This document shows, piece by piece, positions 53,656-64,000 of a stretch of 64,000 nucleotides of DNA. The notes below the pieces were generated by a model. The model did no database searches. It was not told where the DNA came from and was given only the letters and a program-made list of their open reading frames with translations. The position numbers and the translations under genes are program-made. How positions within the stretch are numbered: position 1 is the first letter of the stretch; each line of letters opens with the position of its first letter. This DNA comes from Neptunitalea lumnitzerae (GTDB lineage Bacteria > Bacteroidota > Bacteroidia > Flavobacteriales > Flavobacteriaceae), in assembly GCF_027924185.1 (NCBI RefSeq), contig NZ_BRVO01000002.1:1054001-1118000 (forward strand), given 5' to 3'.

Positions 53656-54225
53656 TTATTGAGGTATTGAATCTTTTTTCTCTCCAAAAAAGTCTTGTAG
53701 GGGTTTCAAAGGATTACCATTTACCTGTGAACTCTGTAAAATTTGCACTAGTTTCCCCATATTCTCAATTTTAAAATTATCTCCTAAAATACGCACCAAG
53801 GCAAAACCATCTTCTTTATTATAGCCATAAATAACTACCTCATCAATAGAGTCTTCATCACCTATATAATAAAGTTTCCCTTTCATATCATTGCTATTAA
53901 AGCTCATTAACTCTTCAAAGTCTTCTCCCTTTAAAATATCACTCACCGTTTCTTTCTCTTCTGTAAAGTTAGGTTGGTTTGCACGCAACATAACTATGTT
54001 AAGTTTTCTCAACGATTTATAGATTTCTTTTTCTTCTGGTGTTAATTCTGTTTTAGAAACATCAAAAATTGATGTGGCCACATCTAAAGAAAGAAATTCA
54101 GGCTGTGCTGATTTGTCTACCAAATACTCTTGTAGCTCTCCGCCTTTCACATCACAAGAAACTGAAAATACTAACAGCATTATTATAAACAGTAATTTTA
54201 CTAAGTATTTTGCTATTACTTCCAT
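53656..54225 (-). CDS. DUF4252 lipoprotein
   Basis: 189 residues from the ATG at 54225 (the longer frame starts with a TTG). A lipoprotein signal (FIIMLLVFSVSC, Cys at about 24) precedes a DUF4252 domain. Domain hallmarks: ILKGEDFEELMSFNSNDMKGKLY and DSIDEVVIYGYNKEDGFALV. Function unknown. It is the second of two DUF4252 genes in a sigma-factor operon, separated from the first by a hairpin. Confidence 0.82.
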   Translation of the reverse strand: MEVIAKYLVKLLFIIMLLVFSVSCDVKGGELQEYLVDKSAQPEFLSLDVATSIFDVSKTELTPEEKEIYKSLRKLNIVMLRANQPNFTEEKETVSDILKGEDFEELMSFNSNDMKGKLYYIGDEDSIDEVVIYGYNKEDGFALVRILGDNFKIENMGKLVQILQSSQVNGNPLKPLQDFFGEKKDSIPQ

Positions 54226-54242
54226 AATTTTCAATTTAAAAA

Positions 54243-54272
54243 AAAGGTGTAACTACAGTTAGCTACACCTTT
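54243..54272 (-). terminator. hairpin (terminator or attenuator) between two DUF4252 genes
   Basis: AAAGGTGTA and TACACCTTT arms with an extra CTA/TAG pair inside, then a T run on the minus strand. It sits inside the operon and would lower expression of the last gene. Confidence 0.7.
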
Positions 54273-54284
54273 AAAACATTAATA

Positions 54285-54815
54285 CTATTTCTTTTGAGCG
54301 TTGTTTAATTGAGATGGCAAGTTCATTGACTTAGTAAGTTCTCCTATTTGGTTTAAATCAATGTCTCCTACTATAGAAAGCAAAACACTTTCTACTTTTC
54401 TTCCCTCAATATTTACATCACTAATACCTTGGATAAACATTAGAAGCTCTTTAACATGGTCTTTATCTTTCCCTTCTCTAATGTAAATTTTCACATTAGC
54501 ATCTTTATCTTTTACTCGCATTAATTCTTCTAATCCACCAGACTTAATATACTTATTAACGGTAGCAGTCATATCCTTAGAAACGGCTTCACTTTCGGTA
54601 GTAAATAATCTTAAGCCTTTAAGACTTTTTACCATATCCATTAAACTTTTTGCTTCCGGATCATCAGAATCTATGTGTACAAACATTTCAAACATACGTT
54701 GGTTTACAACCACCGTAGTTACATCGTCCATATCCTCAAATTTATCAAAATCTGATTGTGCCTTTGATAAAAATGGTAAGGCAACTAATGCTATTAATAA
54801 AACTATTTTTTTCAT
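54285..54815 (-). CDS. secreted DUF4252 protein
   Basis: 176 residues with a signal peptide (cut near LSKAQ, residue 19) and a DUF4252 domain over the rest, for example FTTESEAVSKDMTATVNKYI and VKIYIREGKDKDHVKELLMFIQG. It is probably periplasmic or surface-attached. It belongs to the sigma factor / membrane protein / DUF4252 operon; spacing to the upstream membrane-protein gene is 3 bases. The function of DUF4252 is not known; its coupling to an ECF sigma factor suggests envelope stress. Confidence 0.85.
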   Translation of the reverse strand: MKKIVLLIALVALPFLSKAQSDFDKFEDMDDVTTVVVNQRMFEMFVHIDSDDPEAKSLMDMVKSLKGLRLFTTESEAVSKDMTATVNKYIKSGGLEELMRVKDKDANVKIYIREGKDKDHVKELLMFIQGISDVNIEGRKVESVLLSIVGDIDLNQIGELTKSMNLPSQLNNAQKK

Positions 54816-54818
54816 TTT

Positions 54819-55274
54819 TTACTTGTTTACGGGTTTAAAAATTTTCTGTGTTGTTTCGTCTATTTCATTTAAGTATCCCATCTGCACTTTGCTTTTTTGT
54901 AAATTCATAGCTAAAAGTTCAAATGCTTGCTTGGTTTCAGCATAGGCTATCTCTGCCTCTCTTTTCTGCTGATACTGCTGATATGAATTCACTCCAAAAT
55001 AAGCTCCAAAAATCATAACGGCCACGGCTGCAACTGAAATCCATTTTCGATAATTTACGTTTCGTTTCTCAGGTGTTAATGGAACGTTTTTGGTAAACCG
55101 TTCTTCTTTGGCTACAGCAAAAAAGGAGAACATCATTCTATACTCTTCCAAATGAGGCGCCACATTGTCTTGAGTAAAGTATTGTTGTAACTCTTGTTCT
55201 TCAGCTACCGTTGTGGTAGCCTCCAAATACTTCTCTAATAACTGTTCTATATACTTAACTTTGTTGAATTCCAT
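54819..55274 (-). CDS. small membrane protein, putative anti-sigma factor
   Basis: 151 residues: a helical N-terminus (about 1-70: EQLLEKYLEATTTVAEEQEL resembles the anti-sigma N-domain of Bacteroidota), one membrane helix at about 78-95 (WISVAAVAVMIFGAYFGV), and a helical periplasmic tail. Its start overlaps the end of the sigma factor gene by 20 bases, so the two proteins are made together, the usual arrangement for sigma/anti-sigma pairs. Assignment is by context. Confidence 0.72.
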   Translation of the reverse strand: MEFNKVKYIEQLLEKYLEATTTVAEEQELQQYFTQDNVAPHLEEYRMMFSFFAVAKEERFTKNVPLTPEKRNVNYRKWISVAAVAVMIFGAYFGVNSYQQYQQKREAEIAYAETKQAFELLAMNLQKSKVQMGYLNEIDETTQKIFKPVNK

Positions 55275-55770
55275 AATTGTGTGTTTTAATCAATGATTCT
55301 CTAACTGTTTTTCTTGCTCTAGAAAGTGCTGTTCTTATAGCACTTTGGTTCATATCCATCATTTCAGCTATTTCTTCAAACTCATATTGTTCAATATCTC
55401 TTAACTGTAAAATCATACGTTGTTGCTCGGGTAACGTTGTTAAAATACGTTGCATCCATTCTAAACTATCTACATTCTCAACCTTTCTTTGTAATGAAAC
55501 GGATTCATCTTGATAATTACTGTGCACTAACTTTAAATGACCTGCTTGTTTAGATTTTAATCGGTCTAAGCAATAATTCTTTGTCATGGTCATAGCAAAA
55601 GCTTCTACACTCTTATAAGTCTCTATACGTTCACTACTCTTCCAAAGTTTTAATAAAACTTCCTGGGTAGCATCTTCCGCCTCTTCTTTAGATACTAGCA
55701 ATCTTTTTGCCAATCTAAACATCTTATCCTTAAAGGGCGTTACAGTATTTAAAAACGAAGATGCATCCAT
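55255..55770 (-). CDS. ECF RNA polymerase sigma factor
   Basis: 171 residues from the ATG at 55770 (an upstream TTG at 55779 is less likely). Region 2: MFRLAKRLLVSKEEAEDATQ and LLKLWKSSERIETYKSVEAF; region 4: LPEQQRMILQLRDIEQYEFE, then EIAEMMDMNQSAIRTALSRA. It heads an operon with a putative anti-sigma factor and two DUF4252 proteins, which are likely its regulon members or sensors. Confidence 0.93.
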   Translation of the reverse strand: MDASSFLNTVTPFKDKMFRLAKRLLVSKEEAEDATQEVLLKLWKSSERIETYKSVEAFAMTMTKNYCLDRLKSKQAGHLKLVHSNYQDESVSLQRKVENVDSLEWMQRILTTLPEQQRMILQLRDIEQYEFEEIAEMMDMNQSAIRTALSRARKTVRESLIKTHNYGIQQS

Positions 55771-55878
55771 CTTAAACAATTCATTTGGTTGATATATAAG
55801 GGAGACGACCCAAATAATATTTTGTTACAAAAATTTTCAAATTATAATAAACTGCATAAATTTAATGTTTTATAAGCT

Positions 55879-57426
55879 ATGGTTAAGATATTTAATATGA
55901 GACAGTTTTTCTTTAGTATACTAGGTATCAGTTTTCTTTTTGTAAGCTGTAATGACAGAGATGATAATATACAAACCTATACCTCATCTGCATCTGTAGA
56001 AGATTTTATTTGGAAAGGACTTAATTTTTGGTATTTCTGGCAGGCAGAAGTAGAAGATTTAGATGATAACAGATTTGCTTCTAGTCAGGAGTACTCTAAT
56101 TTTATTACATCTTTTGCCAGTCCTGATATGTTGTTTTACAATTTATGTAATCAACATACCGCTATTTATGATGATGCTAATACTATTGACCGCTTTAGTT
56201 ACATAACCGATGATTATACCTCATTAGTGAATTCCTTAAGCGGATCGTACACTACCAATGGAGTAGAATTTGGTTTAGCTCAATTTTCTGATAGCAACGA
56301 CATCTATGGATTTGTAAAATACATTATGACTAATTCAAACGCTTCTACTAAAAACATACATAGAGGAGATATATTTACAGGAGTGAATGGTATACAACTA
56401 ACCCTTGATAACTACAATGATTTACTATACGGAAATACCAGCTACACGTTAAACATGGCTTCTATTGTAAACGCCTCTTTGGTTACAGACTTTCATCCGC
56501 AAAGAGCTGCTATTAGTGAAAATGGTGTGACAGTAGATTTAACTAAAGAATCGTATACTGAAAATCCTGTTTTTAAAGTAGCAACCTTTTCTAATGCCGG
56601 ACACACTATTGGCTATTTAATGTATAATGGTTTTACCGCTGATTTTAATACCGAATTAAATAATGCATTTGCACAACTGAAAGGTGCTAATGTAACCGAT
56701 TTAGTAATAGACTTCCGCTATAATGGTGGTGGAAGTGTAAATACTTCCAGAATATTATCTAGCCTAATTACAGGCCAGTTTACCGGAGACTTATATATTA
56801 AACAACGTTGGAATGATAAAATTCAATCACAATTATCAGATGCTGAACTAAGTGATTATTTTACCAATACAAATTCTGACGGAGCAAGCTTAAACAGTTT
56901 ACAACTTTCAGAGGTATATGTTTTAACTACGTACCAAACAGCATCGGCAAGTGAGTTGGTTATAAATGCCTTAGACCCCTATATTACTGTACACCAAATT
57001 GGAGCTAGCACAAGAGGGAAAAATGAATTTTCAATTACACTGGTAGACGATCCGGGGAACTCTTATATCTATAGTGATAACCGAATTAATTACATAAACA
57101 CTAACAATAGCTGGGGTATGCAGCCCTTAGTAGGCAGAAATGCTAATGCCGCAGGTTTTTATGATTATGCTGACACTGGTTTTATACCAGATACTCAGAT
57201 GGCAGAAGACCTAACCAACATGGGCATTTTAGGTAATGAAACAGAACCTTTTTTAGCAGAAGCTATTGCACAAATTACTGGTAGCGCCAGAAAAGCATAT
57301 CAACCAATCAAAATCTCATTAAAGGAGTTCGCAAATTCTAAAAGCTACATAAAACCTTTTAACAACATGTATGTAGAAAAAACTCCTGATATTCATATTT
57401 CAGATATTTCATTCCCAAATGATTAA
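55879..57426 (+). CDS. S41-family peptidase lipoprotein (C-terminal processing protease)
   Basis: 515 residues. Lipoprotein signal (FFSILGISFLFVSC, Cys about 22). A PDZ-like region (about 125-215) precedes the S41 core with VIDFRYNGGGSVNTSRIL (about 275-292), the catalytic Ser in TYQTASASELVINALD (about 352-367) and the catalytic Lys in STRGKNEFS (about 374-382). It cleaves C-terminal regions of exported proteins and probably sits in the outer membrane. An in-frame ATG at 55897 is an alternative start. Confidence 0.9.
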   Translation: MVKIFNMRQFFFSILGISFLFVSCNDRDDNIQTYTSSASVEDFIWKGLNFWYFWQAEVEDLDDNRFASSQEYSNFITSFASPDMLFYNLCNQHTAIYDDANTIDRFSYITDDYTSLVNSLSGSYTTNGVEFGLAQFSDSNDIYGFVKYIMTNSNASTKNIHRGDIFTGVNGIQLTLDNYNDLLYGNTSYTLNMASIVNASLVTDFHPQRAAISENGVTVDLTKESYTENPVFKVATFSNAGHTIGYLMYNGFTADFNTELNNAFAQLKGANVTDLVIDFRYNGGGSVNTSRILSSLITGQFTGDLYIKQRWNDKIQSQLSDAELSDYFTNTNSDGASLNSLQLSEVYVLTTYQTASASELVINALDPYITVHQIGASTRGKNEFSITLVDDPGNSYIYSDNRINYINTNNSWGMQPLVGRNANAAGFYDYADTGFIPDTQMAEDLTNMGILGNETEPFLAEAIAQITGSARKAYQPIKISLKEFANSKSYIKPFNNMYVEKTPDIHISDISFPND

Positions 57427-57469
57427 AAATTAAAAAGGAGTATCAATTAGATACTCCTTTTTAATTTTT
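57425..57469. terminator. bidirectional terminator with 20-bp stem
   Basis: A perfect 20-bp inverted repeat with loop AATTA lies between the S41 gene (+) and the end of the Hsp70 operon (-). The arms are AT-rich at the outer ends, giving T runs in both directions. Confidence 0.88.
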
Positions 57470-57488
57470 ATCTATACAATGGCATGCG

Positions 57489-58931
57489 TTAATTTTCTTC
57501 TACCTCTTCCGTTTCCTCATTAGGTTCTTGCTTTTCATTCACCTTTTCCTCTTTATCAGGGTTTACCTCTACTGGTGTTTCAGATGGTGTTGTATTCAAT
57601 TCTTCTTTCAATTCTAAAGAATCTTTCACAGGTTCATCCTCACTAGGTGTTTGAACTGGCTGTACCGCTTCTTCCTTAACAGTAGATTCTGACGATCCTC
57701 CACCTTCATTTTCTTCAATTTTCTCTATTCTATCAGGTACTTCATTAACTGTTACACCATACTTTTTTATAAGTGCTAATAAACGTGATTTATCTTTGCT
57801 ATTCATACCTTTCAAAACAAAATCTTGAGATGTAAAGGCCTGCTTTGAGTCTATTTGAAAGTATTTTGTTTTATAACTTATAAATTGTCCGTTTTCATTA
57901 ATAGAGGCAATACTTTTAAATGGTAGTAGGTACAACACTTTCGATTTTTTATTACTGATGTAAAAACCACTTTTATTTAAAGTACCTAACACAAAATCGG
58001 TAGGTTTATAAGTATTAATCAATTTTAGCAGTGCAATACTATCTGCATAAAACTCACTCAGTGGCTTGGGTACTTCATTAGCTATTTCTACCTCAACTTC
58101 TTCTGGGGTATCATTCACAGTACCTGAAGGACTTGCAATCATCTGTTCCCTATCTGGTTCTGATGTAGGGGCTTCTTCTCTATCAGGCGTTACAACTTCA
58201 ATATCATTACTATTAATTATTTTTTCTTCTTTACTAAATAATACATAACTAACTATTAGTAAACCTACTATAAGCACCAACCCTATTAAAATTAACTTAC
58301 CATAACCATCTTTTTTAGTTTCAACAGTAGATTCAGTTACTGATTTAGCAGGTTCCACTTCTTCATGTATAGCAGTGGCGTCTACTGTTTTATTAGCTAG
58401 TTGCTTTTCTGCTACTTCCTGTTTTTGTAAAATTCTTTTCTTTACTTTAGCCAACACATAATTTAGTGCTACCTGAAAATACAGCTCTGCTCTTTCCTTT
58501 TCCTTTCTAAAGGGTTGCTTAGAAGCCTCTAAAGCTGTAGCCTCTATTTTAGTATCTAGCTCACCTGTATAGAATTTAAAACGCTCTTCTATTACAGCTT
58601 CATTATCAAATGGAAAAGCTGCAAAAAAAGCTAATGCCTCTTCGGGTAATATTCGTTGTTCTCTACCAATAACATCTCCTTCTTCAATATAGCCTTTTCC
58701 CATAGACAAAAGTGCTCCCATATCAGAAATCACTTCACTATCGGTTAACACTTTATAAGCATCTTCTAACTGTTTCAAGTGTACCTCATGCAAGTGCTTC
58801 ATTCCCTCTGTTAAACAAAGGTCACATTGTTCATCACATACGGTGTACCAAAAAGAAAATTTAGCTCTAATGGTTTCCATATCTGCTTCAGATGGTACTC
58901 CTAAAATTCGAAATGCTTCTTCTTTAGTCAT
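57489..58931 (-). CDS. membrane protein with degenerate J-domain, last gene of the Hsp70 operon
   Basis: 480 residues. N-terminal J-like fold (about 4-66): FRILGVPSEADMETIRAKFSFW as helices I/II and HLKQLEDAYKVLTD as helix III, but the HPD loop is absent and replaced by a Cys cluster CDEQCDLC (Cys32, 36, 39). A helical stretch (about 95-180) follows, one membrane helix at 212-233 (KLILIGLVLIVGLLIVSYVLF), an acidic linker, a compact region at 290-395 (FVLGTLNKSGFYISNKKSKV) that could be a PH-like beta domain, and an acidic 85-residue tail. A normal J-domain uses HPD to stimulate Hsp70 ATPase; this one could instead bind Hsp70 without stimulating it. It is 17 bases after the Hsp70 gene. Confidence 0.8.
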   Translation of the reverse strand: MTKEEAFRILGVPSEADMETIRAKFSFWYTVCDEQCDLCLTEGMKHLHEVHLKQLEDAYKVLTDSEVISDMGALLSMGKGYIEEGDVIGREQRILPEEALAFFAAFPFDNEAVIEERFKFYTGELDTKIEATALEASKQPFRKEKERAELYFQVALNYVLAKVKKRILQKQEVAEKQLANKTVDATAIHEEVEPAKSVTESTVETKKDGYGKLILIGLVLIVGLLIVSYVLFSKEEKIINSNDIEVVTPDREEAPTSEPDREQMIASPSGTVNDTPEEVEVEIANEVPKPLSEFYADSIALLKLINTYKPTDFVLGTLNKSGFYISNKKSKVLYLLPFKSIASINENGQFISYKTKYFQIDSKQAFTSQDFVLKGMNSKDKSRLLALIKKYGVTVNEVPDRIEKIEENEGGGSSESTVKEEAVQPVQTPSEDEPVKDSLELKEELNTTPSETPVEVNPDKEEKVNEKQEPNEETEEVEEN

Positions 58932-58948
58932 GGCTATGCTATTAAAAT

Positions 58949-60475
58949 TTAAACAACATTATTTATAAACGATTTTTGAACCAGTACTTTCTGGGTTGCT
59001 AAATAGTTAGCCCCCATTCCTTCCTTTCCGAAAGTTTTTTCCAATTCCCTTCCTGTCTGTGGGTCATAAGCTTGTAAAATAATCGTATTGTCTTCTGTAT
59101 ATTCTAGGGTAATGTCTATAGGATAATTTGCCTGATTACTAGGTAGAGGTCCAACATTTAAAACCCCTAAAGTTTTTATATCATTCTCTTCAATAAACTG
59201 CACCAATTCTATGCGCATTTTACCATTGTTGTTAGGTGCTGTGTAATACGTTTTCTTTGCTTTTAGCGGTACAGGCCTGTTTTTTTTAATGATAATATCT
59301 AATATGGTTCTACCGCTTTCAGTATCTACCGCTCTTACTGCTAAATTATATCCGGTAACCCCTTTTAGTTCAGACGGCATATCCATATCAGCACCTCCGT
59401 TACCCGTAAGCATTCTTGCATATACTGAAGCCCCAAACACGACGGCTTTCATAGGGTCATGAAACCGAATTTTATTAGCCAGTAATGGTAGCTTTTCAGC
59501 TAGATACTTTTTAATGAAAGGCACCATAGAAGACCCCCCAACCAGCAGCAATACATCAATATCTTCATCAGTTAACCCAGCCGAAGAAACACAACGTTTT
59601 AATATTTTAATAGTACGTTCTACATCAGGTCTAATAGCGTCTTCAAATTCTTTTCTAGATATAAAAACATCAATACTATCGTTCCCTATTAAACACACTC
59701 TATTTACATATTGAATACCCGGACTAGATAATTCAATTTTCACCTCTTCAGAAAACGTTCGAAGCTGTTGTAATTTTCTACCGGTAAAATTGATAGGTTT
59801 CCCAGTAGCCGCTTCAAACTGGTTGTGTATAATTTCGGCTATAGCCTCATCAAACTCCTTACCTCCCAAGTCGGTTAAACCGTCTTTACTTACAACATAA
59901 AAACCTTGCTCGTTCATATTAAGCACCGTAGCATCAAACGTACCCCCTCCTAAATCATACACCAATATATTTTGGTCGTTAGCTTTTTGTGACAGTCCAT
60001 AATGCATAGCGGCTGCAACAGGTTCTTCTACCAAGCCTAATACAGGTAAGTCTATCATAGCTGCTGCATTAATAACAGCTTTTCGTTGTGCATCGTTAAA
60101 GTGAGCAGGTACCGTAATTACGGCACCTTCTACGGTATTAGAAGCATAAATTTCTGCATCATACTTTATTTTTTTCAATACCAATGCAGCCACAGACTCC
60201 GGATACCAAATGTCTCCATTTTTCATATCCATATAGAGTTCTTTATTATCTCCTAAATAGCGTTTAAAAAAACGTATTACATTTAAATCTGGGTTCTGTT
60301 CTAACATATGTAGCACAGACAACCCCACAAAAGCATTGTTTCCGTTTATATGCAGTATACTTGGTGTATACAATACATTTTTATCGGAATTATCTGGTAA
60401 TAATACCGGTTGATGATCTAAATTTAAGGTAGCTCCTAAAGAATATGTGGTACCTAAATCTATGCCTATTATCAT
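58949..60475 (-). CDS. short Hsp70-family chaperone lacking the lid
   Basis: 508 residues against about 640 for DnaK. The ATPase domain is complete: phosphate-1 IGIDLGTTYS (3-12), connect-1 AVITVPAHFNDAQR (118-131), phosphate-2 VYDLGGGTFDATVL (172-185), adenosine motif LLLVGGSSMVP (309-319) and DPMKAVVFGA (340-349). A beta substrate-binding region follows (about 375-500), but the helical lid and the EEVD-like tail are absent. Its ATG overlaps the stop of the 584-residue gene by 4 bases. Lacking a lid, it probably grips partners loosely or works as a regulated ATP switch rather than a general folding chaperone. Confidence 0.93.
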   Translation of the reverse strand: MIIGIDLGTTYSLGATLNLDHQPVLLPDNSDKNVLYTPSILHINGNNAFVGLSVLHMLEQNPDLNVIRFFKRYLGDNKELYMDMKNGDIWYPESVAALVLKKIKYDAEIYASNTVEGAVITVPAHFNDAQRKAVINAAAMIDLPVLGLVEEPVAAAMHYGLSQKANDQNILVYDLGGGTFDATVLNMNEQGFYVVSKDGLTDLGGKEFDEAIAEIIHNQFEAATGKPINFTGRKLQQLRTFSEEVKIELSSPGIQYVNRVCLIGNDSIDVFISRKEFEDAIRPDVERTIKILKRCVSSAGLTDEDIDVLLLVGGSSMVPFIKKYLAEKLPLLANKIRFHDPMKAVVFGASVYARMLTGNGGADMDMPSELKGVTGYNLAVRAVDTESGRTILDIIIKKNRPVPLKAKKTYYTAPNNNGKMRIELVQFIEENDIKTLGVLNVGPLPSNQANYPIDITLEYTEDNTIILQAYDPQTGRELEKTFGKEGMGANYLATQKVLVQKSFINNVV

Positions 60476-62226
60476 AGTTTACTTATGGTTTCATGATATT
60501 GTTGAATCAACTCTCCTTTAAATTGTGCTAGCAGTTTATCAAAAGAATCTTTTCCTTTCAGTGTTGATTGGTGTGCTCGGTCTCTTTGTTCTAACCCTTG
60601 AATACGGCGTTGTACGGCACGCTGACTATCTTGTATTTTTGTTTTATGCTCATCTGAAGCTACAGAAAAAGTATGTTCTAATTCACCTATAAATTCATTC
60701 AATTCATCTCGTAAAGTACTTACCAATTCTCGTAACCATTCGTCTCCCAACTTTTTTACAATGCTTTTACTCTCCTTATAAAGAGTATCTCTCATTCTAT
60801 TTAATTCATTTTTATAATCAAGCTCCTTTTGTTCTTTGGTGTGTTTTAAAAATTTATAAAAGGTATAAATAGCAAAAGGTGCCAAAGCCAGTCCTATATA
60901 GGGTATATACTCACCTACAGACTTACGTAAAGAAGGAACAAAACGTAAAATCATCATTAATGAAAACACCGTCATAAATGGCTTCAAAGCAGCCCTTATA
61001 TAATCACCCGTTTCTAGGTTTTTCTTATCGGTCTCATAGCGTTGCACAAACTGATTGTACTCTACTATGTTAGCTTCTACTCTAGATAGATTAAATTGAA
61101 TATTTGGGCTATATGAAAATTCAATGTGATATTGCTCTAATTTCTTTTTACAATCTTCAATTTCTTGATTCAAAAATTCTTTCAACGAAAAAACATCCTG
61201 ATCCATTTGATTTCTAATTCCTGTAGCAATCATCTGCGATACATGGGTAAGTTTTTCCTCTGGTAAACTCATTTTTAATTTTCCTGCTATAACCTGTTCT
61301 TCCAGAGTAGCTATCTCATCAATTTCAGTACTTACTTTATACATTAAAGAGTTTTCTTGTCTGGATTGATTCATTTTTATAACAGCATCATTTACACCTC
61401 TTTCAAACTCTGAGAAATCTCTTTGTAAATTCTTTTTAATCCCTTGATAAAGCTCTCTAAAATTTAGTTGTTCATCTTGCTTTACTTGGTTAATATCTTG
61501 TTGGGCATTAAATTTTTTAGTTTTAATATCTTTTTCTTGCTGAACTACATATTGATAAAAAGCATCACTTATTTTCTCTAAGCCTTGTAACAATCGTGCT
61601 CCATAAAAAATAGGCAACATACTGGTTATACCTTTAGACGCCAGTAACACCTCTATGCTTTCAGGCATATTCTTATAACTAGTAGGAAGTACTTTTAACT
61701 CTCCAGAGGTTTTAAGAAATTGATTCTCTGAAGTATTTATAAAAAATAAGATCCCTCCCTCAGATTGCAGGCGTAGTGCTATCGTCTCAAACTCACCAGA
61801 ACCAGGAGCTTCATCCGAAAGCCAAAATGCTAATTTAAATACGGGTTGTATGGCTGCTGTACTACGTATAGGCAAGTGAGCAGAATTATAAAACTTTAAC
61901 CGAAGGTTAACCCCGGTAAAATTAACTAGGGTTTCATATGAGTAACGAGTTTTAGCATTCGTAATAGCTATCTGAATATCTTCAACTAAAACTTCATTGA
62001 CACCTAAAAACTTAACAATCTTTTTTAAATCATCGAAAGATGGAGTGTCTAAAAATATAATTTCAGCAGGAAGTGCGTCTGGAGAAACTACCCTTCTTCT
62101 CATTTCTTCCAGATGTGTAATAAGATGATGCCCCATCTGTATACCTGGATAATTTTTCATTAAATCATACAGGCTATCAACAGCTTTAACATATCTGTTA
62201 TAAAAAACTTTTGGTACGGTAATCAA
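60472..62226 (-). CDS. coiled-coil membrane protein of the Hsp70 operon, dynamin-like layout
   Basis: 584 residues. Layout: an alpha/beta N-domain (about 1-215) with PAEIIFLDTPSFDDLKKIV at 53-71 (a G3-like DTP motif without any P-loop GxxxxGKS), long coiled coils (215-400), two adjacent membrane helices (about 415-430 and 440-460, KPFMTVFSLMMILRFVPSLR, then YIGLALAPFAIYTFY), and a C-terminal coiled coil (465-584). That order resembles dynamin-related membrane proteins such as mitofusins, but the GTP-binding loop is absent, so I call it a pseudo-dynamin-like candidate only. Start: TTG at 62226; no ATG lies before residue 31 and an in-frame stop is three codons upstream. Confidence 0.8.
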   Translation of the reverse strand: MITVPKVFYNRYVKAVDSLYDLMKNYPGIQMGHHLITHLEEMRRRVVSPDALPAEIIFLDTPSFDDLKKIVKFLGVNEVLVEDIQIAITNAKTRYSYETLVNFTGVNLRLKFYNSAHLPIRSTAAIQPVFKLAFWLSDEAPGSGEFETIALRLQSEGGILFFINTSENQFLKTSGELKVLPTSYKNMPESIEVLLASKGITSMLPIFYGARLLQGLEKISDAFYQYVVQQEKDIKTKKFNAQQDINQVKQDEQLNFRELYQGIKKNLQRDFSEFERGVNDAVIKMNQSRQENSLMYKVSTEIDEIATLEEQVIAGKLKMSLPEEKLTHVSQMIATGIRNQMDQDVFSLKEFLNQEIEDCKKKLEQYHIEFSYSPNIQFNLSRVEANIVEYNQFVQRYETDKKNLETGDYIRAALKPFMTVFSLMMILRFVPSLRKSVGEYIPYIGLALAPFAIYTFYKFLKHTKEQKELDYKNELNRMRDTLYKESKSIVKKLGDEWLRELVSTLRDELNEFIGELEHTFSVASDEHKTKIQDSQRAVQRRIQGLEQRDRAHQSTLKGKDSFDKLLAQFKGELIQQYHETISKL

Positions 62227-62306
62227 AACAATTTATGATTAGGTTAGTGTTCTTTAATCATTAAGACTATATACTTCTAGGACTTGCTCCTAAATATTTT
62301 TTTCTT

Positions 62307-62885
62307 TTAAAACATAAAGCCGTTACCACCATCCTCATTAGATGCTGATGAGCGAATACTCTCTATTTCAGACAAAATTCCTTGTGCTTCCGATTTAAAA
62401 CTTTCTAATTCTGCTAATACCTGTTCAGCATTTTGTTTTTCAGTTTCTAAATCTGCCTTTAAAATTTCAGCCTCCTGCTTTAATGCTTCTATTTCTTCTT
62501 TTAAACTAAAGGTTTCTTCTTTAAGAGCTGTACTTTCTTCACGTAAGCCAATTATTTCCTCCTTTAAATGAAACGACTCTTCTTTGAGTCCTGTTACTTC
62601 TTCGTGCATGGCATTAACCTCTTCTTTAGAACTTTCTAAATGTGCTAATACATTCTCAATTTGCTCATTTGTTTCTTGTGCAGTATCCTTGAGGTTCTCT
62701 ATAAGGTTTACATTTTCCGTTGCACTCTGATGATACTGTTGCAACTCTTCTGTAATTCCTTGTGCATTAGATGCTTTATCTATAAGCTCATCTAAAGAAC
62801 TACTAGCATTTGCAAATACATCATTTAAATCGGTAGTACCATTAAGGGAATCATTTGTTGGTATTTCATCATTTGAATAATCCAT
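62307..62885 (-). CDS. coiled-coil protein with seven-residue tandem repeats
   Basis: 192 residues, no membrane helix. The N-terminus is Asp/Asn-rich and disordered-looking; 45-95 is coiled coil; residues about 94-149 are eight near-identical heptads of the form LKEExxx (for example LKEESFH, LKEEIIG, LREESTA), visible also as 21-base DNA repeats; a second coiled coil follows to 180, then a Gly-rich end. A rod or linker that could join the other membrane proteins of the operon. No enzyme motif; function unknown. Confidence 0.78.
   Translation of the reverse strand: MDYSNDEIPTNDSLNGTTDLNDVFANASSSLDELIDKASNAQGITEELQQYHQSATENVNLIENLKDTAQETNEQIENVLAHLESSKEEVNAMHEEVTGLKEESFHLKEEIIGLREESTALKEETFSLKEEIEALKQEAEILKADLETEKQNAEQVLAELESFKSEAQGILSEIESIRSSASNEDGGNGFMF
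62439..62606 (-). repeat. 21-base tandem repeats coding for heptads
   Basis: Eight 21-base units encode the consecutive heptads of the 192-residue coiled-coil protein. Units differ at some positions, so the array is old rather than freshly expanded, but such arrays change copy number easily. Confidence 0.7.
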
Positions 62886-62918
62886 TGTAAAAAGTTTTAA
62901 AAGTTAAAGGGTAAATAG

Positions 62919-63815
62919 TTAAATAGCCGAAACCATACTGGCAAACACTTGTAATTTATATTGTAGAGATAAAGCAATTTCTGGATCTGGATTTAAACTA
63001 ACAATCTCAAGCACCTCTTCTTCCACAACTAAATTCTCTTCTATAATGCTCTGCACTGTTTCTTCATCAAGCAAAGTATCCACATCAATTTCAGTATCTA
63101 TCTGAAAATCGTCACTTAAAACTCCCTCTTCAGGCAGTTCAATTTCATTTTCTATAATGGGAGGTTCCTCTAATTCTTCTACAACAGGAACTTCTTCATT
63201 TTCTTTTATCGGCTCTTCTGGCTCTATAAATTCTTCTGGCGTAGTAACGGGTTGTAATATTTCAGGATTTTCCTTTACTTCTTGCAGTGTATTATCTATC
63301 TCTTCAATGTCTAAATAATGAAACACAGTTAAAGAAACTCCGGCTGCTGCTAAAACCGCAGCTGATCCTATTAGAGTGGTATGTAAACTTCCTCTTTTAG
63401 TGATTACTTGCTTATTATCTTTCAAATATTCATAAGAACTGCTGATAGTTTCTTTCTCTTCAACAGGTAAATCTTCATACTTTTTCTCTACCTCTGCCCA
63501 ATCATCAGATGGTTTACACCCAACATCCTGAAGTGCATTTACAGTTTTAAAATAGGTTTTATTAGCATCTACCACCTTATCAGCAAACTCTTGGTAAGCT
63601 CCGTTCAACTTCTCTAGCTCAACTTTCAATTCTTGTTTAGATACTTCATCTGCGGTATTAATAGCAGTTTCCAAAATACCTACTTTTATTTTGTAAGCCT
63701 TTTTCACCTGAGAAAACTTAGAAGACATTTCCAGATTCAGTATTTTAAAAATACTCGTATCGGGCAGACGGTTTATAATTGGCAAGCTCATACTAACTAT
63801 TTGATTTACGTTCAC
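62919..63815 (-). CDS. membrane protein with J-like N-domain and acidic tail, first gene of the Hsp70 operon
   Basis: 298 residues. Residues about 21-80 (SIFKILNLEMSSKFSQVKKA, then LEKLNGAYQEFADKVVDAN) resemble J-domain helices I to III, but the HPD tripeptide is missing. A membrane helix follows at about 146-167 (HTTLIGSAAVLAAAGVSLTV), then a very acidic Glu/Pro/Ile/Val-rich segment (175-275). It is the first gene of the operon. Start: GTG at 63815 gives the full frame; an in-frame ATG at 63791 (MSLPIINRL) is equally possible and perhaps better. No known family recognised beyond the J-like fold. Confidence 0.75.
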   Translation of the reverse strand: MNVNQIVSMSLPIINRLPDTSIFKILNLEMSSKFSQVKKAYKIKVGILETAINTADEVSKQELKVELEKLNGAYQEFADKVVDANKTYFKTVNALQDVGCKPSDDWAEVEKKYEDLPVEEKETISSSYEYLKDNKQVITKRGSLHTTLIGSAAVLAAAGVSLTVFHYLDIEEIDNTLQEVKENPEILQPVTTPEEFIEPEEPIKENEEVPVVEELEEPPIIENEIELPEEGVLSDDFQIDTEIDVDTLLDEETVQSIIEENLVVEEEVLEIVSLNPDPEIALSLQYKLQVFASMVSAI

Positions 63816-64000
63816 ATAAAAAGAAAAGACTATTTCACAGTACTTAAAAACACCATCAAATTTCTATTCTTTAAATTTACAATATCTCCTATACTATTCA
63901 ATAGGAAAACCCCTATCAACGATTAGAATGTATCTACATACCGTTAATATAACCTTCTACAAACTAAAAAATTAAATAATAGCTCTAATAGCCTGATACC
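63816..64000 (-). promoter_or_regulatory. upstream region of the Hsp70 operon, no gene seen
   Basis: 185 bases without a supported gene. On the minus strand TAAATTTA at 63872-63879 is one base off TAnnTTTG, about 57 bases before the GTG start, and a small inverted repeat (ATAGG / CCTAT) lies near 63890-63905. Either could be regulatory; evidence is weak. Confidence 0.3.

Follow-up and report, generated by a model that had tools for sequence, protein, structure and literature searches.

The nearest published idea to the gene set described here is the Hsp70/GrpE/DnaJ theme of the GAP1-N2 systems (Kaur et al. 2020, PMC7159879), in which an Hsp70 is linked to variable J-bearing proteins, together with membrane association, parts of the FGE-sulfatase type and a patchy spread. 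These properties recur in a cassette of six genes and its counterparts in other genomes; the six genes come from Neptunitalea lumnitzerae and were found in and just beyond NZ_BRVO01000002.1:1,054,001-1,118,000 (64,000 nt, the whole stretch analysed and called the window below; genome label G000, C2:1054001-1118000). The cassette encodes an Hsp70 without an alpha-helical lid, a dynamin-like protein (DLP), a coiled-coil rod and the J-like proteins J298, J480 and J777. The cassette is real and conserved, and its components belong to known superfamilies but fail key criteria of these (no HPD, no P-loop, no lid). As a whole it appears to be an undescribed means by which bacteria bring chaperone power to their cell envelope; that it is categorically new is the minority case. 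According to the cited passages of Kaur et al. (PMC7159879), the GAP1-N2 systems have GAP1, GTPases, GrpE in the Hsp70 theme and DnaJ-fused FNIII proteins, and the theme is predominantly actinobacterial and firmicute, whereas the J domains of the cassette lack HPD. Pfam matches to GAP1, P-loop GTPases or GrpE were found neither in the five window proteins nor in 20 proteins scanned from extended and related loci.

Bacterial dynamins and mitofusins (BDLP1, Cj-DLP1/2, LeoA; PMC6104087) share with the DLP, in the weak model built here, a G-domain-like head, a helical trunk and a hydrophobic tip. Unlike those described in that source, the cassette DLP is devoid of a P-loop (8 of 8 homologues), is encoded by a single gene instead of a pair, and overlaps the Hsp70 gene. 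There is a precedent for a link between J domains and dynamins: the DLP encoded beside BDLP1 has a DnaJ-like domain (PMC6104087). Similar to the cassette, the mitochondrial import motor formed by Pam16/Pam18 and mitochondrial Hsp70 combines an HPD-less J-like domain (Pam16) with an Hsp70 at a membrane. Pam16 pairs with an HPD-bearing partner, whereas the cassette J-like proteins are all without HPD (20 of 20 checked) and no translocase was seen. The HscA-HscB and HscC-DjlB/DjlC pathways (PMC8215388) also use a dedicated, divergent Hsp70 with its own J partners and no GrpE, but according to that review most of the allostery residues of HscA and HscC are identical or conservatively replaced and the alpha part of the substrate-binding domain (SBD-alpha) is kept, whereas in the cassette Hsp70 both lid and linker are gone. 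In CoCoNuT systems an Hsp70-like protein, CnuD, is encoded in an operon with coiled coils; the Walker A-like motifs described for CnuD are degenerate (PMC11090510), whereas the ATP site is intact here.

Identification of the cassette as CoCoNuT, LeoABC or HscC was rejected, as the defining genes were lacking among the proteins scanned; no McrBC-type match was obtained with the cassette and related-locus proteins scanned, and a PADLOC match of the DLP to LeoBC (E 2.8e-5) is confined to the helical trunk (residues 216-545). No description of the cassette combination was found in the open-access literature searched, which is limited evidence because only open-access text was covered; the cited part of a paper on DnaK duplication (PMC11019930) likewise holds nothing on this combination.

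Conservation and distribution of the gene set

An earlier reading of the window (the sequence-only reading) had described five tightly packed genes on one strand as a unit, with the Hsp70 gene overlapping its neighbour by 4 bases. The open reading frames (ORFs) were found exactly as stated, with gaps of 17, -4, 80 and 33 bases from J480 to J298, but the size of the unit had to be revised to six genes: J777 lies 169 bases upstream of the J298 gene on the same strand, almost entirely past the window end. In the sister species, the only other member of the genus compared, the whole block 57489-66318 is absent (the DLP thus occurs in 1 of 2 genomes of the genus) and the S41 peptidase and Sel1 genes stand 68 bases apart, the flanks of the block matching those of the window genome at 73-76% nucleotide identity. 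Because the six-gene block is missing as a whole while its flanks are intact, it was gained or lost as one unit. This block-wise absence and the recurrence of the gene order in three other genomes indicate that the set did not arise by chance; the expectation that the genes would be found together in related genomes was borne out.

The order in the window genome is J777-J298-rod-DLP-Hsp70-J480. In Parapedobacter composti it is J248-rod-DLP-Hsp70-J(FGE-sulfatase)-J(TonB_C)-J292, in its relative G977 J249-rod-DLP-Hsp70-J(WG)-J(OmpA)-x-J(WG)-J420 (Pfam scan of the first WG protein only), and in a second relative, G941, J262-rod-DLP-Hsp70, followed by eight J genes interspersed with others and then J459. 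In these four close loci a J298-type first J protein and a J480-type last J protein are fixed, with variable content between them; in distant loci rods with repeats of other kinds are found close to the core, together with J proteins that carry LRR or FHA domains. The eight J-like genes of the G941 array (L018/L050/L134, C38:153169-178154) encode very similar first 60 residues and different C-terminal parts. At the G886 locus (L019, C2:246000-264000) the Hsp70-DLP pair is accompanied by a Ser/Thr kinase with MORN repeats, PP2C, a J-like/FHA protein, MoxR, DUF58 and a Peptidase_S74 rod. By eye, proteins that look secreted are numerous near the distant Hsp70-DLP pairs (L020, L021, L022, L052 and L053); they have a repeated motif of the FYVDGE type and diverse C-termini, and further coiled-coil rods lie there too.

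The DLP was used as query against 40 relatives, 395 genomes of the phylum, 395 of the class and 251 of the family of P. composti. Only the window genome itself was found among the relatives (1/40) and across the phylum (1/395); the class gave 7/395 (G000, G435, G476, G510, G528, G587 and G450, the last judged spurious), the P. composti family 4/251, and small order-level scans 1/5 and 3/7 genomes. The G450 candidate (DLP profile E 1.9e-4) is a 222-aa ORF with no adjoining Hsp70 seen, in a genome missed by the Hsp70 profile, and was dropped before the counts. An Hsp70 alignment searched against the class at E 1e-110 retrieved 6/395 genomes, the same six as the DLP minus G450. The two scans agree only partly independently, as the alignment already held the G000, G435, G528 and G587 copies, so that the new information consists only of G476, G510 and the absence of Hsp70-only genomes. 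When only the window Hsp70 was run against genome contigs, P. composti was the one relative retrieved. Altogether the pair is carried by ten genomes (G000, G432, G435, G476, G510, G528, G587, G886, G941 and G977), in all of which the Hsp70 and DLP genes are adjacent, with a 4-base overlap in nine and a 2-base gap in G886. These ten are not all independent, since the G435 and G587 Hsp70 proteins are 99% identical.

Divergent features of the cassette proteins

Among the five window proteins only the Hsp70 scored above the Pfam cutoff (HSP70, E 9.7e-76, residues 2-479), which puts it in the superfamily and agrees with the earlier statement that it alone belongs to a well known family. The curated NCBIfam cutoffs were passed by none of the five, Hsp70 included, and in the libraries searched no partner was strongly similar to a known Hsp70 pathway, again as anticipated. 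The window Hsp70 is 85% identical to that of P. composti (L006:8001-9524), 82% to that of G977 and 79% to that of G941, and the housekeeping DnaK of the window genome is 78% identical to each of its three counterparts. The cassette partners diverge more than the Hsp70: the DLP is 45, 46 and 40% identical in the same order, and J298 and J480 are 31% and 41% identical to their P. composti counterparts (for J480 over aligned columns, L006:12938-13816). Codon positions 1/2/3 of the window and P. composti Hsp70 genes are 82/95/34% identical, and the G+C content is 0.33-0.38 for the six genes, 0.333 for the window and 0.516 for the P. composti locus. Recent horizontal transfer, considered because the Hsp70 identity of 85% exceeds the 78% of DnaK, was rejected: with third codon positions only 34% identical and a G+C content fitting the host, strong constraint explains the likeness better. 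Judged from these comparisons, the operon Hsp70 is an old, strongly constrained protein under strong purifying selection; an older transfer of the cassette may still lie behind its patchy presence.

The operon Hsp70s consist of a nucleotide-binding domain and SBD-beta, followed by a short tail with INN or LNN near the end in place of the lid, which is missing in 8 of 8 full-length proteins aligned. The ATP-site motifs GIDLGT[TS], [FY]FKR, D[LF]GGGTFD and GG[ST] are kept in 9/9, T and S being conservatively exchanged in G886. The catalytic lysine is displaced in the automatic alignment but is supplied by [FY]FKR in all nine. In DnaK, Asp35 of the HPD motif of DnaJ bonds Arg167 and Gln378, while E206, D211 and E217 bind the J domain, P34 touches P419, and the linker VKDVLLLD transmits the signal (PMC8215388). 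In the operon Hsp70s the LLLD linker is absent (9/9) and the docking residues are replaced throughout: R167 by G or A, Q378 by Y or H, E217 by Y, K or N and E206 by N, S or T, while D393 aligns to G. The DnaKs retain LLLD and R167 as well as Q378, E217, E206 and D393 in 9/9. EEPV is among the replacement residues conserved in all nine operon Hsp70s. The operon proteins thus fail the canonical DnaK-type criteria of lid, VLLLD linker and Arg167. The docking-residue comparison covered E206, E217, R167, Q378, D393 and P419, with an uncertain alignment of the linker, and a co-loss of the socket for HPD is suggested by it but not proven.

The J-like set comprises 20 proteins from 8 loci. HPD occurs in none of them, whether the first 90 or the first 110 residues are considered, and a transmembrane helix is predicted in 17. 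In J480 two J-like units without HPD stand in tandem (residues 3-81 and ~96-169), ahead of a single predicted transmembrane helix (213-231) and an acidic tail with a sub-threshold PH-like Pfam match (310-386, E 0.034); an AlphaFold model of residues 1-170 shows two helical units in tandem (mean predicted local distance difference test score, pLDDT, 88). J298, a second and fixed class, has one predicted transmembrane helix (147-165) and a conserved C-terminal segment, with homologues in L006, L017 and L018. J777 combines a tandem J-like N-terminus and a transmembrane helix (306-324) with Sel1 repeats (E 1.6e-67). A profile of 18 of the 20 units, two close copies being left out, was compared with solved structures, and the 15 best rows were J-domain or DnaJ-derived (one named 'HCG3 gene') at E 1.2e-6 to 8.4e-5. 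Taken one at a time, the units all score under the Pfam cutoff, 5/18 with a weak match to DnaJ (best E 0.0011). A Foldseek search with the J-like model gave ferritin-like bundles on top, none significant; as J domains are not among these top matches, the homology rests on the profile search, from which we take the units to be relatives of J domains without HPD. The two HPD-less J-like domains noted from the sequence were in this way confirmed. At the HPD position 10/20 units have NAP, extended to NAP[TN]P in 8 of those, in array-type proteins; the G941 array is without NAP. According to Pfam, the swapped C-terminal parts are Sel1, WG, OmpA, TonB_C, FGE-sulfatase, LRR and FHA; with the FHA protein as the exception, they follow the transmembrane helix in these mostly single-pass membrane proteins. 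The view of the J-like proteins as a receptor-like array whose C-terminal parts are exchanged goes beyond the sequence-only reading.

The rod is built of LxxExxx heptads, with a pattern count of 5, 22, 24 and 30 in the four close rods, all of which end in FMF; these rods come from the window and from L006, L017 and L018. The FMF tail follows a Gly/Ser-rich stretch and is a possible Hsp70-binding peptide, and the heptad count varies about six-fold. Distant rods have other repeat types, the G886 rod carrying a Peptidase_S74 domain.

The DLP model, built from a two-row alignment, has a long helical trunk and an N-terminal alpha/beta head at the place of a G domain (Foldseek E 2.3e-4 to small GTPases). 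When compared with 1000 Foldseek chains, ranks 1-9 were taken by Mfn2, Mfn1, a bacterial dynamin pair and Fzo1 (Z 12.8-10.8, root-mean-square deviation 5.1-9.3 Å). A hydrophobic tip lies near residues 412-430. Neither [GA]xxxxGK[ST] nor GK[ST] was found in any of the 8 DLP homologues, and no G1 motif is conserved across the DLPs, close and distant members of which share 13-19% whole-protein identity. The label pseudo-dynamin, for a protein that by fold may be similar to mitofusins and bacterial dynamins, rests on a weak model and a coherent list of matches. Of the earlier description as a dynamin-like partner, the fold is tentatively borne out by comparison of a weak model, whereas a P-loop is missing. 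The same reading had three of the four partners linked to the membrane and two largely coiled coil, and both statements hold: J480 and J298 have one predicted helix each and the tip of the 584-residue protein scores modestly, while heptads fill the 192-residue rod and the long helical trunk is modelled in the 584-residue protein.

Possible function and alternative explanations

Tentatively, we favour the cassette as an accessory Hsp70 system of the envelope (inner membrane), in which J adaptors would dock a rewired Hsp70 that acts on the pseudo-dynamin. The J-like units would lie on the cytoplasmic side and keep the Hsp70 at the membrane, with the C-terminal parts (Sel1, WG, OmpA, TonB_C, FGE-sulfatase) pointing outward. 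A change at an outer head, such as peptidoglycan contact, a ligand or stress, might alter ATPase cycling of the Hsp70 through the interface that replaced HPD-Arg167. The Hsp70 is linked to the pseudo-dynamin by the overlap of their genes and by their shared occurrence, and the Hsp70 could spend ATP to assemble, release or disassemble a scaffold of pseudo-dynamin and rod, its ATP turnover replacing the GTP turnover of ordinary dynamins. The likely outcome would be local envelope tethering, repair or gating of a response. The interpretation given in the sequence-only reading is partly supported, its membrane or envelope remodelling function being putative.

Several observations weigh against this proposal. 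The loss of J-docking residues does not appear strongly enriched, since, of 176 positions that do not vary among 11 DnaK-type proteins, 60 are lost in 8/8 full operon Hsp70s. The named contact P419 is kept in the 8 operon Hsp70s that reach it, and two DnaK paralogues carry R or S at E206 and one carries E at Q378. Directly after the best J domains the J profile also matches a helical lectin neck (E 8.6e-5), a sign that helical bias contributes some noise, and the J-like model aligned to the DnaK-bound DnaJ domain with Z 4.3 over 60 residues, tied with ferritin-like bundles. The J/FHA protein of L019 has no transmembrane helix, and the outward topology is suggested by the charge pattern and by the place of OmpA and TonB_C, which are usually periplasmic. 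The DLP model has a mean pLDDT of 60; in its comparison the unrelated helical Rad50 (Z 9.2) stands above LeoA (8.7), with septins and Rabs following at ~8, and the tool warns that helical models can reach Z ~13 by chance. The second hydrophobic helix of the DLP is under threshold in 5/8 proteins, including that of the window, and a profile of the eight DLPs gave no convincing relative in the PDB and no consistent Pfam family.

It seems rather unlikely to us that the cassette serves conflict or defence in the manner of the GAP1-N2 GTPase systems, with heads that sense invaders or foreign surface contacts while Hsp70 and pseudo-dynamin assemble a membrane effector. That HSP70 has already been described together with DnaJ fusions and variable parts (PMC7159879) speaks for this reading, as do the patchy distribution (1/395; 4/251) with gain or loss as a block, the arrays of paralogues with swapped parts including FGE-sulfatase, and the G886 core beside a Ser/Thr kinase, PP2C and an FHA protein. 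However, the PADLOC matches are weak and mostly to coiled coil, plasmid searches gave no match (DLP to E 1e-5, Hsp70 to E 1e-60), the best 80 of 529 viral relatives of the Hsp70 alignment are Hsp70s at 30-34% identity, and no defence genes were noticed by eye in the flanking ORFs, for which no systematic scan was made. Somewhat more doubtful is a specialised but otherwise ordinary chaperone pathway, on the model of HscA-HscB or of HscC with DjlB/DjlC, in which the Hsp70 folds or inserts the membrane proteins of the cassette. HscC, whose clients are presumed to be transmembrane proteins, partners with DjlB and DjlC, neither HscA nor HscC works with GrpE (PMC8215388), and dedicated Hsp70s can adjoin their own clients. 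Against such a pathway stand the loss of lid and VLLLD linker and the missing HPD in 20/20 J-like proteins, given that, in that review (PMC8215388), none of the systems tested retained stimulation once H or D of HPD had been exchanged; up to eight array adaptors and a rod also have no obvious role in simple folding. It is very improbable that the DLP has remained a working enzyme of membrane remodelling, with a nucleotide site of an unusual kind, the Hsp70 only regulating its oligomer state: its weak model matches mitofusins and a bacterial dynamin pair by fold, and bacterial DLPs are usually paired, with the J-bearing neighbour of BDLP1 as an example (PMC6104087), but GxxxxGK[ST] occurs in 0/8 homologues and, at 13-19% identity, no G1 motif is conserved.

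Within the favoured accessory envelope system, a bolder form is a swap of fuel, in which the DLP lost GTP binding and became ATP-driven through a dedicated Hsp70 switched by transmembrane J-like receptors with exchangeable heads, the HPD/Arg167 trigger being given up. We consider this form unlikely. If true, bacteria would here, to our knowledge, provide their first case of a receptor array coupled to an Hsp70 motor; Hsp70 allostery could then be rewired off the HPD-Arg167 contact used in the reviewed systems, and a dynamin-like scaffold could work without a nucleotide of its own. The swapped parts on a constant J-like base would offer reagents for probing which signals an Hsp70 perceives across the bacterial envelope. 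Direct tests are possible, as the cassette is compact, the sister species is naturally without it and the components are purifiable.

Coordinates, borders and neighbouring genes

Features of the cassette, with positions numbered from the first base of the window
Feature	Position	Strand	Remarks
J480	57489-58931	-	480 aa; closing gene of the cassette
Hsp70 without alpha-helical lid	58949-60475	-	508 aa
Pseudo-dynamin (DLP)	60472-62226	-	584 aa
Coiled-coil rod	62307-62885	-	192 aa
J298, second, fixed class of HPD-less J-like protein	62919-63815	-	298 aa
J777 (sixth gene)	63985-64000; full 63985-66318 (L004:9986-12319)	-	777 aa; last 16 bases in the window
Inverted repeat, AT-flanked	57427-57469	.	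read by eye as a possible terminator; marks the downstream border, with the S41 peptidase gene on one side and J480 on the other

A terminator scan of 57300-57600, at the downstream border, scored none. None of the five intergenic gaps contained the pattern TTG/TTTG-TAnnTTTG, which we take to be the promoter type of Bacteroidota. Beyond J777, a 286-aa Sel1 protein (L004:12592-13452) belongs to the flank and not to the cassette; it shares its repeat family with J777, the head of which was perhaps borrowed from this neighbour. On the other side the cassette is flanked by an S41 peptidase (55879-57426) of the GFO_1087 family (NCBIfam NF058627, 586 bits). Beside it, a sigma-factor-like gene and three small genes lie in a row at 53656-55779, as seen by eye, and this row is kept in the sister species.

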